A stretch of DNA of 64,000 nucleotides from Nitrososphaerales archaeon (lineage in GTDB: Archaea > Thermoproteota > Nitrososphaeria > Nitrososphaerales > Nitrososphaeraceae): positions 1-64,000 of the forward strand of contig JARBAU010000230.1 in assembly GCA_029237525.1 (NCBI GenBank), written 5' to 3'. How positions within the stretch are numbered: the first letter of the stretch is position 1; every line of letters starts with the position of its first letter. This document shows, in pieces, positions 7,820 through 63,848 of the stretch. A program made the translations under genes and the position numbers. Under the pieces are notes generated by a model. The model was not told the origin of the DNA and made no database searches. It saw only the letters and a list, made by a program, of their open reading frames with translations.

Positions 7820-8668
7820 GTGAGTTCTATTAGAGTAGCGGTAGTACAGATGCAATCATCACAGCATAAGGCAGATAATCTTAACGTTGCCTTGGAATAC
7901 ACCTTGCTTGCTGCAACTAAAGATGCAAAAGCGATCTTATTCCCTGAATTCCTTATGGCATATTCTCCTGAAAATCAAAATGCAAAAGAATTGGTCAGTA
8001 CAGCAGAGTCTGTCAACAATGGAAAGTTTGTCGCTGCATTGCGAAAAGCAGCTAAAACTAACAATATTTCCATTGTGGCAACCATATATGAGAAATCTGC
8101 AAATAATGATCAACGGGTTTACGACACAGCGATAATAATTAATTCAATCGGAAAAATATCTTCTGTTTATAGAAAACTTCATTTATATGATGCTATGGGA
8201 TTTCAAGAGTCACGTAAATTTGTCGCTGGTGATAAGATTAACAAACCAGTTATGCTAGGTCCTACAAAAATTGGCATCATGATTTGTTATGACATTCGAT
8301 TTCCTGAAATGTCCAGAATATTAGTAGGAAATGGGGCTAACACATTAGTTGCACCCTCTGCTTGGGTGCATGGGATATTGAAGGAGGAACATTGGCTGAC
8401 GATGCTCAAAGCTAGGGCTATCGAAAACGGAGCATTCGTGATCGCGCCTGATCAAGTCGGAAATATCTATAGTGGACGGAGTCTGGTCATAGACCCATTC
8501 GGCGTGGTTCTTTTGGATATGGGGAATAAGCAAGGTGTGGATATTGTGGATATTGATGTGTCCCGAGTTAAGGGTATTAGACAGACATTGCCATTGCTCA
8601 AAAATCGTAGAACTGACGTATACAAGAGAGATCTAGATGTATTTTGTAGGGATTGCAATAAAAGATAG
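7820..8668 (+). CDS. Nitrilase-superfamily amidohydrolase
   Basis: 282 residues from GTG 7820; the frame stays open back to 7733 but the extra 29 residues precede the usual first strand RVAVVQM and are probably not translated. The catalytic triad is complete: Glu43 in FPEF, Lys119 in YRKLHLYD, Cys156 in ICYDIRFPE. The enzyme hydrolyses a C-N bond of an amide; the YRKLHLYD pattern is typical of the Nit1/Nit2 (deaminated glutathione or omega-amidase) branch and of related archaeal amidases. Cytosolic. 149 bp after the DUF92 stop, same strand. Exact substrate cannot be read from sequence. Confidence 0.87.
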   Translation: MSSIRVAVVQMQSSQHKADNLNVALEYTLLAATKDAKAILFPEFLMAYSPENQNAKELVSTAESVNNGKFVAALRKAAKTNNISIVATIYEKSANNDQRVYDTAIIINSIGKISSVYRKLHLYDAMGFQESRKFVAGDKINKPVMLGPTKIGIMICYDIRFPEMSRILVGNGANTLVAPSAWVHGILKEEHWLTMLKARAIENGAFVIAPDQVGNIYSGRSLVIDPFGVVLLDMGNKQGVDIVDIDVSRVKGIRQTLPLLKNRRTDVYKRDLDVFCRDCNKR

Positions 8669-11294: not shown

Positions 11295-11867
11295 TAGTGT
11301 ATCAATTTCAGTATCATCTCATATATATATCACGCCGTATGATTTAGGAAAAACGAAATCAATATTATAGAATAAAACTGAAATATCTTACTTGTGTAAT
11401 CATTTGTCCTAACGGAAATATTATGTCTAGAAATTCCTCAAGAATCTCAATTGAATTTAATGACCTAAGCAATTCTGTCTACTTGATCATGTTAGACTGT
11501 GCCGCACTTCGCATAGTCTTGACAATGAATTTAACACACACTACATTCTATTACATTTTAATTTTTATAATTTCTAGAAGTACGTGTTAGACCCATAGAC
11601 CAAATTCATCTGCCATTCACGATTCGTGTATTTCGCAGGTAAGATTTAAAACTTGTACTAATGGCTGCACCAAGGTTAGAACTTGGCATGTTATTTAAAT
11701 TCTCGACTATGATAAAAATAACACGAAACCCGCAGAGTATTCAAAGATATATATTGTGCCAACTAAATTATATTAATTATGACATTGCAAAACGAAATTA
11801 TCGGGGCGATGTTTTGAAGTATAAGGATAGTTTCTACTCAAAAATGAGAGAGTGACCGCTACAGAAT
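11295..11867. other. Stretch without a supported gene
   Basis: AT-rich; the only frame over 60 codons (11661-11855 plus) gives an ill-ordered peptide with no motif. No RNA gene, repeat or clear operator was recognised. Confidence 0.4.
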
Positions 11868-51845: not shown

Positions 51846-52457
51846 TCACTTTAATTCGTAAAGTGCTACTGATAATTTCAGAACCATTTTTTCATCGGTG
51901 TTTTCCGCTATAGGAATCAGATATTTTAGTGTCTCCTCCTTGTATCTGTTCATCTGGTATTTGTGGAATGTACTTTTAAGTGATCTGATGTTATCTAGGC
52001 GATCAGCTAGTTTTATATATCTGACTGATTTCGAGCCTTTTGCAATTCCTTGAAAATACTTCTCCAAAATGTCGTCTTTATCCTGATCCGTGTCGTGAAG
52101 AACTGGCCTAGTGACTGTAGATACTGTATTATAAACATCATCACCGAATTCTGATCTTAGTATTCCTTTACTGTCCGCCTGTTTGCTCAATTTTTTTTCC
52201 AGTATGTCGTGTAGGAGTGCAGCACAAATCAAATTCACGTCGAAAAGCTTAAGTTCTTCTGTCAAAATAAGTGCAACCCTCAAGGAATGATTGATATGCG
52301 GCTCGATTTTTCCACTATTTCGATATTGCCCAGCATGAGCTTTCATAGCCAGACTGAAAGCCTTGGTGATCTTTGTCAAATCGAATATTGAATTCTCATA
52401 CGGTTTGAGTAGAATGGAAAATCCTGATTTTGTAAACTCGTTTATATTCCATTTCAT
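51846..52457 (-). CDS. HD-domain hydrolase, SpoT/MESH1-like
   Basis: 203 residues, ATG start. HD-fold ligands appear in order: MKAHAGQYRNSG, HINHSLRVA, LLHDILE (HD pair), and LADRLDNI (final Asp), followed by the helical end of the ppGpp hydrolase domain. The length equals a hydrolase domain alone, without the synthetase, TGS or ACT parts of RelA/SpoT. In SpoT the HD pair is followed by EDT; here it is EKK. Single-domain relatives hydrolyse (p)ppGpp or NADPH. Which substrate applies in archaea is uncertain. Confidence 0.8.
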   Translation of the reverse strand: MKWNINEFTKSGFSILLKPYENSIFDLTKITKAFSLAMKAHAGQYRNSGKIEPHINHSLRVALILTEELKLFDVNLICAALLHDILEKKLSKQADSKGILRSEFGDDVYNTVSTVTRPVLHDTDQDKDDILEKYFQGIAKGSKSVRYIKLADRLDNIRSLKSTFHKYQMNRYKEETLKYLIPIAENTDEKMVLKLSVALYELK

Positions 52458-62057: not shown

Positions 62058-62100
62058 AGTCAAATACTGGTAGGTTATTTCAATTAGATGTAGCTAGGGA

Positions 62101-62240
62101 AGCCCGGTCGAATCTACAGCGGAGTCGTATGTGGATGCCGAATCTAGTGGCCAATCTCCAAGGTAGGGCTAGGGATTTCAGGCTCTGGATCTAAATAGAA
62201 AAGAAACCTGGAGACAGCAGTTCGAATCTGCTCCGGGCTA
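62101..62240 (+). tRNA. tRNA-Gln (CUG) with three introns
   Basis: Acceptor arms AGCCCGG (62101-62107) and CCGGGCT (62233-62239) pair perfectly, discriminator A62240, no encoded CCA. T arm AGCAG-TTCGAAT-CTGCT at 62216-62232. Anticodon stem TCAGG (62178-62182) with CCTGG (62207-62211), loop C-T-CTG-G (62183-62188) plus A62206: anticodon CUG. D arm ATCT-AGTGGCCA-GGAT uses 62142-62153 and 62173-62176. The parts make a 72-nt tRNA only if about 62109-62140 (after T8), 62154-62172 (after A21) and 62189-62205 (37/38, canonical) are removed. Exact splice points may shift by a few bases, since bulge-helix-bulge pairing was not fully resolved. AGCCCGG with A73 fits archaeal tRNA-Gln. Confidence 0.85.
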
Positions 62241-62241
62241 C

Positions 62242-62247
62242 TTTTTT
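62242..62247 (+). terminator. T-run terminator after tRNA-Gln
   Basis: Six T residues begin two bases after the discriminator base, the usual archaeal termination signal. The last T overlaps the stop codon of convergent pckA. Confidence 0.5.
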
Positions 62248-63848
62248 CATAAGATAGGACCGGCGCGCTTTATCTCTGGAGAAACGTCACTGAATTTTTC
62301 GAAATTTTTGACAAAAAGTGAGGCCAACCTAAGTGCCGCAGTATTATATTTCTCCTTATCTGGCCACGTATTTGCAGGATTCAAAATTTCTGAAGGAACT
62401 CCAGGACAGGCTGCAGGTATGTCTAAGTTAAAAATCTCATGATGTTCAAAGGCCTCATTTTCGAGCGTCCCATCGATTACCACTTTTACCATTGATCTTG
62501 TGTAGTTTAGATTTATTCTTTTTCCGACACCGTAAGGTCCCCCAGACCAACCGGTATTTATCAAGTATACCTTAGTATTATGAGCTAGTAACTTTTGTCC
62601 TAACATCTGTGCATATCGATCAGCTGAAAGCAGCATAAATGGAGCTCCAAAGCATTGTGAAAAGGTTTCTTGCGGTTCAGTGATTCCTCTCTCAGTTCCA
62701 GCTAATTTGCTAGTATATCCTGACATGAAGTGATACATTCCACCTTCTCTACTTAATTTGGAGATTGGCGGCATCACTCCGAAGGCGTCGGCAGTAAGAA
62801 ATATTATGACCTTAGGATGACAAGCCAATCCTGGGATGATTGATCTAGGTATGTACTCGAGAGGATACACAACACGAGTATTTTCTGTTATTCCACCATC
62901 ATCAAAATCAGCTAACCTGGTATTCTGATTTACAACCACGTTTTCCATTACTGCTCCAAATCTGATAGCATTCCAAATCTGAGGTTCATTTTCCTTTTTC
63001 AGGTGTATGCATTTTGCATAACAACCACCCTCAAAATTAAATATCCCATTTTGGGACCAACCATGCTCATCATCACCTACCAAGTATCTATCTTTGTCTG
63101 CAGAAAGAGTGGTTTTTCCTGTGCCAGATAGTCCAAAAAATAATGCGGCGTCACCATTTGGTCCAACATTGGCGGAACAATGCATAGGGAAGATTCCTTT
63201 AATAGGTAGAAGATAGCTCATGATTGAAAACATTGCCTTCTTTATTTCACCTGCATATGAAGTAGATCCGATGATGACCATTTTCTTGGAGAAGTTTATA
63301 ATTATGAATGTCTCGCTTTTTGTCCCATCAGTCAAAGGATTGGCTTTAAAATTGTTTACAGAAATCAAGCTAAATTCAGGAACAAATGTCTGAAGCTCAC
63401 TAGCATTGGGTTTTACGAATATCTGCGTAGAGAAAAGGCATTGCCATGCCTTATCTGTAAGAACTCTTATCGGAAGCCTTACTGAAGAATCAGCTCCTAC
63501 AAACCCATCAAAAACGAAAAATTCCTTTTTATCAAGGTGGACTTTTAATCTATCAAATATAAGATCGTATTTTTCTGGAGATAGCCGATGATTTACTTTT
63601 CCCCAGTTTACTGTATTGTGTGTGATCTCGTCATCGACAATAAATCTGTCATCAGGTGACCGTCCAGTATACTTTCCAGTGTTTACAGTTAATGCTCCTG
63701 TAAGAGACAAAATCCCCTCTCTCCTACGAATAGCAACCTCGATCAATGACGCAGGAGACAAATTATGTTGAACCTTGTCTACCCTAATACCGGATCTTTC
63801 CAACTGTTCTTGACATTTGGCGGCCATGGAAGCTCGGTCGATACTCAT
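62247..63848 (-). CDS. pckA: Phosphoenolpyruvate carboxykinase, ATP type
   Basis: 533 residues, ATG start. Converts oxaloacetate and ATP to PEP and CO2, feeding gluconeogenesis. The kinase-1a loop GLSGTGKTTL and kinase-2 DDEHGW are intact; NTGKYTGRSPDDRF near residue 56 and the MHCSANVG, YTSKLAGTE and NTGWSGGPYGVGKR segments are those of the ATP-dependent enzyme rather than the GTP form. Length is normal. Convergent with the tRNA gene, with essentially no gap. Confidence 0.96.
   Translation of the reverse strand: MSIDRASMAAKCQEQLERSGIRVDKVQHNLSPASLIEVAIRRREGILSLTGALTVNTGKYTGRSPDDRFIVDDEITHNTVNWGKVNHRLSPEKYDLIFDRLKVHLDKKEFFVFDGFVGADSSVRLPIRVLTDKAWQCLFSTQIFVKPNASELQTFVPEFSLISVNNFKANPLTDGTKSETFIIINFSKKMVIIGSTSYAGEIKKAMFSIMSYLLPIKGIFPMHCSANVGPNGDAALFFGLSGTGKTTLSADKDRYLVGDDEHGWSQNGIFNFEGGCYAKCIHLKKENEPQIWNAIRFGAVMENVVVNQNTRLADFDDGGITENTRVVYPLEYIPRSIIPGLACHPKVIIFLTADAFGVMPPISKLSREGGMYHFMSGYTSKLAGTERGITEPQETFSQCFGAPFMLLSADRYAQMLGQKLLAHNTKVYLINTGWSGGPYGVGKRINLNYTRSMVKVVIDGTLENEAFEHHEIFNLDIPAACPGVPSEILNPANTWPDKEKYNTAALRLASLFVKNFEKFSDVSPEIKRAGPIL

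Follow-up and report, generated by a model that had tools for sequence, protein, structure and literature searches.

tRNA genes with three introns have been described in Thermoproteales (PMC4390854; PMC4033280), as exemplified by tRNA-Glu(UUC) of Pyrobaculum calidifontis and tRNA-Pro(UGG) of P. islandicum (PMC4390854; PMC4090602). For Thaumarchaeota, an alpha2beta2 pattern of the splicing endonuclease has been reported and associated with tolerance in the choice of substrates (PMC4090602). The available text of the tRNAscan-SE 2.0 paper describes archaeal tRNA genes with up to three introns and counts 107 non-canonical introns in Thaumarchaeota genomes (PMC8450103). Gain and loss of tRNA introns among close relatives is also represented by the disrupted tRNA-Thr(GGU) of Caldiarchaeum subterraneum, which is tied to mobile-element integration and splitting (PMC3293823).

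Here we analyzed a 64,000 nt stretch of DNA from a Nitrososphaerales archaeon (the window), in which the excision of three segments turns positions 62101-62240 of the forward strand into a tRNA-Gln(CUG). Like the multi-intron tRNAs of Thermoproteales, this gene carries three short introns of the bulge-helix-bulge type, non-canonical beside canonical, in a genome with an apparent alpha2beta2-type endonuclease. In contrast to those cases, it belongs to the class Nitrososphaeria, concerns another tRNA with introns at positions 10/11 and 21/22, and persists throughout a family in which the loss of one intron can be traced. Its introns are of the same kind and from the same phylum as those counted in Thaumarchaeota by tRNAscan-SE 2.0, and the available text of that paper names neither the gene nor its three-intron state nor its distribution (PMC8450103); the three-intron gene may already be listed, unnamed, in the supplement of the paper or in GtRNAdb. 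The locus resembles the C. subterraneum tRNA-Thr(GGU) in its gain and loss of introns among close relatives, but no mobile element was seen at tRNA-Gln(CUG). Our literature search found no account of this tRNA-Gln(CUG) gene. The multi-intron archaeal tRNA is already known as a kind, and it is seen here with family-wide conservation in a lineage other than Thermoproteales. We regard the locus, with a probability of roughly 95%, as the functional tRNA-Gln(CUG) gene of this genome, from whose single precursor three introns of the bulge-helix-bulge type would be removed.

Structure and surroundings of the tRNA-Gln(CUG) gene

The gene measures 140 nt from the first to the last tRNA base, and all its exons and introns are read on the forward strand. 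Exon 1 (62101-62110) carries tRNA positions 1-10 (AGCCCGG TC G), exon 2 (62143-62154) carries positions 11-21 (TCTAGTGGCCAA), exon 3 (62173-62188) carries positions 22-37 with the anticodon CTG at 62185-62187, and exon 4 (62206-62240) carries positions 38-73, comprising the T arm, the 3′ acceptor strand and the discriminator A with no encoded CCA. They are separated by intron 1 at position 10/11 (62111-62142, 32 nt), intron 2 at 21/22 (62155-62172, 18 nt) and intron 3 at the canonical position 37/38 (62189-62205, 17 nt). The gene is neither split nor permuted, as the exons all lie in order within the 140 bases. Removal of the three introns leaves the 73 nt product AGCCCGGTCGTCTAGTGGCCAAGGATTTCAGGCTCTGGACCTGGAGACAGCAGTTCGAATCTGCTCCGGGCTA, a tRNA in which every stem is formed and the anticodon loop is normal: 7/7 pairs form in the acceptor stem, 4/4 in the D stem (two of them G-U), 5/5 in the anticodon stem (one G-U) and 5/5 in the T stem. 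At minimum energy, the mature tRNA is not folded into the cloverleaf, as is common for unmodified tRNA in the folding program used. The fold of the whole 140 nt precursor does not alone display all three splicing motifs.

A sequence-only reading of this stretch had proposed a tRNA-Gln gene interrupted three times, with two non-canonical introns in the D region and four paired stems including a complete acceptor stem. These points are borne out, as the parse is conserved in 49 family genes and the spliced form is called by ARAGORN. The proposed 72 nt product is corrected to 73 nt. The intron lengths of 32 and 17 nt hold and the second becomes 18 instead of 19 nt; among the insertion sites 8/9, 21/22 and 37/38, the latter two stand and the first moves to 10/11, as read from orthologues without intron 1 and from intron-free genes.

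A candidate TATA-like element, TCAAATA (62060-62066, forward strand), is located 35-41 nt upstream of the gene, and an identical or similar A/T motif precedes tRNA-Gln(CUG) in most relatives. Tail to tail with the tRNA lies a 533-aa ORF (62247-63848, reverse strand), named PEP carboxykinase (ATP) solely by reading its sequence; this neighbor is kept in most of the family and serves as a syntenic anchor. Just upstream of the tRNA, at 62088-62099, a YAGCTC motif (usually GTAGCTCG) is conserved in nearly all relatives bearing intron 1, and the seven genes that lack this intron show a changed or displaced version. We considered a tie between this leader and intron 1 and set it aside: no supported pairing partner was found, and the seven deviating genes all belong to one genus. 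As a separate observation, the last 28 bases of the tRNA, from the end of the variable loop to the discriminator base, are letter-identical in many Methanomicrobiales genomes (L152 onwards).

Neither ARAGORN nor the Rfam tRNA model at its gathering score made a call at the unspliced locus. The Rfam model gave only a sub-threshold match of 26.3 bits at 62181-62240, which we rejected as a mis-registered half of the gene. ARAGORN recognized tRNA-Gln(ctg) across all 73 nt of the fully spliced sequence and nothing in the unspliced gene; its full-length Gln calls were limited to the fully spliced form and the form retaining the anticodon intron.

Conservation in Nitrososphaeraceae

The same gene was parsed in 49 Nitrososphaeraceae genomes. 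Every one of them yields the same four exons and a product of exactly 73 nt, which excludes chance. Introns 2 and 3 are present in all 49 genes and intron 1 in 42, with lengths of 22-37, 15-31 and 14-26 nt for introns 1, 2 and 3, respectively. Identity to the window averages 97.6% in the exons, against 63, 79 and 80% in the three introns, and 64 of the 73 exon columns are invariant; exon 1 is near-invariant across relatives, and exon 2 is conserved in all 49 genes. The sequence-only reading had considered three introns rare outside Thermoproteales. The host is indeed not a member of that order, but the state is no curiosity of a single genome: it is the rule in the family (42/49). The three-intron relatives include the genus g2, Candidatus Nitrosocosmicus (G002, G013, G020 and G026).

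The seven genes without intron 1 (L046, L112-L115, L117 and L118), in which exon 1 runs directly into exon 2, all belong to the genus g12, which contains Nitrososphaera. Because two other g12 genomes (L043 and L116) retain the intron, the simplest reading of these sequences would be a clean loss in part of g12/Nitrososphaera.

Bulge-helix-bulge motifs at the splice sites

Bulge-helix-bulge modeling, suggested as a check by the sequence-only reading, fits all three splice sites with a 4-bp central helix, 3-nt bulges and cuts after the second bulge base; introns 1 and 2 follow this central pattern strictly and intron 3 is relaxed by one C-A mismatch. At intron 1, the central helix is formed by CGGU at positions 5-8 (C5G6G7U8) together with GCCG from the end of the intron, with a 5′ bulge CG^A and a 3′ bulge AA^U; the 6-bp inner helix, AUCUAC/GUGGAU in the window, takes many other still-pairing sequences in relatives. 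Among the 42 genes, 93% of the inner helix cells are paired, two-sided changes occur at 6/6 pairs, and 47 cells are changed on both sides compared to 18.3 in shuffles (0/500 reach 47); as the alignments were cut at predefined splice sites with the loops omitted, these counts lean towards structure, which is addressed by slid controls, in which at most 50% were paired. Unconstrained RNAalifold yields the same core for intron 1.

The central helix of intron 2, GGCC/GGCU with bulges AA^U and AG^G, is 100% paired and includes one compensating pair (GGUC/GACU). Intron 3 has the central helix CUCU/AAAG, the bulges GG^A and AA^A, and a well-kept inner helix, UCU/AGA. Its C34 faces A throughout the family, and the families f13, f7 and f12 have GGGG there. 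Pairing in introns 2 and 3 shows weaker covariation than that in intron 1. These two motifs are relaxed, intron 2 in its weak inner helix, which is short and often mismatched, and intron 3 in the C34-A mismatch.

Splicing machinery and predicted processing

The genome contains two PF01974 splicing-endonuclease genes. L001 aligns with crenarchaeal-type endonuclease chains at 1e-41 and keeps the Tyr, His (IDHAP) and Lys (VKK) residues, and L002 is devoid of the catalytic His. At the level of sequence, this pair of one catalytic and one non-catalytic paralogue is the alpha2beta2-type pattern, which answers the question of endonuclease type raised for this locus by the sequence-only reading. An RtcB ligase gene is also present.

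In the proposed pathway, a single 140 nt precursor carrying three introns of the bulge-helix-bulge type would be transcribed, and a heteromeric alpha2beta2-type endonuclease would cut each intron at both bulges, at the predicted sites TCG^A/GAA^T, CCAA^T/TAG^G and TGG^A/GAA^A. RtcB would most likely ligate the exons and circularize the introns to give the 73 nt tRNA reading CAG codons. Because acceptor nucleotides 5-8 are engaged in pairing with intron 1, this intron is probably excised before the acceptor stem fully closes.

Two other readings of the locus have to be weighed. A decayed tRNA pseudogene, with random insertions for introns and the true CUG gene elsewhere, might be suspected from the failure of standard finders at the locus and from the incomplete assembly; because the genome consists of 400 contigs and is 93.7% complete, a second CUG gene could lie elsewhere. 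However, no other CUG gene was found in these contigs by covariance model, pattern or ARAGORN, the sole other Gln gene found being that for UUG, so that the intact copy which the sequence-only reading had named as grounds for calling a pseudogene did not appear. Together with the invariance of most exon positions across 49 genomes, the compensatory changes within introns and the conserved synteny, this makes decay hardly credible. A functional gene whose boundaries lie at 8/9 and 21/22 with a 19 nt second intron and a 72 nt product, or are otherwise shifted by 1-2 nt, would still form four stems, and the folding energies of the 72 and 73 nt versions are nearly the same (-29.8 and -29.9 kcal/mol). 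Such a shift is nevertheless extremely improbable: the seven Nitrososphaera genes without intron 1 read AGCCCGGTCG-TCTAG over the site (AGCCCGGTCG-TCTAGTGG), that is TCG-TCTAG and not T-AATCTAG, intron-free genes read GGTCAAGGAT, and 3-nt bulges cut after the second base yield exactly the 73 nt joins. Intron 1 is placed at 10/11 and not at 8/9 because of these intron-1-less and intron-free genes. We thus retain the functional three-intron gene with a 73 nt product as the preferred reading.

Intron series in the order and four-intron genes

The 10/11 intron is found in Nitrososphaeraceae and the families f2, f3 and f8, and the 21/22 intron also occurs in f4, f7, f8, f12, f13 and f15. The genes of f4, f7, f12, f13 and f15 have introns at 21/22 and 37/38 only, and those of f2 and f3 combine 10/11 and 37/38 with an intron placed at 24/25 as read from the sequence. 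Several f10 genomes harbor an intron-free 73 nt tRNA-Gln(CUG), and intron 3 is absent in the f10 orthologues L071, L073, L075 and L090. The f9 genomes searched gave the UUG gene only, and no CUG gene was found in them. One gene of f13 (L125 in G061) shows an extra D-loop intron near 14/15, placed likewise, beside those at 21/22 and 37/38.

In the family f8, the tRNA-Gln(CUG) genes of G043 and G102, which represent two genera, carry four introns at 10/11, 21/22, 25/26 and 37/38. The introns measure 38, 19, 45 and 44 nt in L274 (G043:C77, around 11420-11640, forward strand) and 40, 17, 37 and 41 nt in L275 (G102:C181, around 7917-8130, reverse strand). The two mature tRNAs are identical at 73/73 positions whereas the intron sequences differ, and ARAGORN finds a full-length Gln(ctg) only after all four introns are removed. 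In both genes, the final base of the retained 21/22 intron is able to take part in the 25/26 central helix, as G-C in one and A-U in the other; on the basis of these two sequences, such pairing would imply a fixed splicing order. Four introns in one tRNA exceed the published maximum of three, and no report of four introns in one archaeal tRNA was found in the literature. The tRNA-Gln(UUG) genes of f8 (L276 in G074 and L278 in G043) apparently have three introns too, in the D loop, D stem and anticodon loop.

It is very probable that tRNA-Gln(CUG) is an intron hot spot of the order, with up to four introns in f8, and that the three-intron gene of the window is one stage of this series. The series would have formed by stepwise gain and loss, in which introns at 21/22 and 37/38 became widespread in the order and some members of Nitrososphaera later underwent a clean loss of that at 10/11.

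As for the origin of intron 1, the sequence-only reading had taken the D-arm repeat CGAATCTA as a hint of a birth by local duplication. The octamer does stand at both ends of the intron in the window and six g5 genomes, but an exact repeat is confined to these 7 of the 42 intron-1-bearing genes, and the duplication is very unlikely. The first copy consists of exon CG and one strand of the covarying inner helix, varies with its partner in relatives, and differs in 35/42 genes including the sister genome L034, which has CGAACCTG in its place. The second copy spans the 3′ splice site, and the general feature is only the CGA shared by the surroundings of the two splice sites. The repeat does not record how the intron arose. 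Somewhat doubtful, though far from negligible, is the idea that one Gln isoacceptor acquired its 10/11 intron from the other via recombination between near-identical acceptor halves. A probable 10/11 intron of ~23 nt is seen in the tRNA-Gln(UUG) of the window genome as well (L063, G000:C209, around 52145-52240, reverse strand), and the 10/11 introns of UUG genes in f2, f9 and f11 (L144, L145, L150 and L151) end in CCGAA or CCGAG. However, the shared ends are also needed to pair with the common exon CGGU, so that convergence explains them equally. Such recombination is a question of origin and is compatible with a functional three-intron gene as the best explanation of the locus.

Implications

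Three-intron tRNAs are not peculiar to hyperthermophilic Thermoproteales: one is stably maintained across a family of abundant soil ammonia oxidizers. Common tRNA finders overlook an essential tRNA in these genomes. As this one tRNA occurs in nature without introns and with two, three or four of them, it allows tests of how introns are gained and lost and in which order they are spliced, and cultured Nitrososphaera and Nitrosocosmicus are among the organisms suited to such tests.
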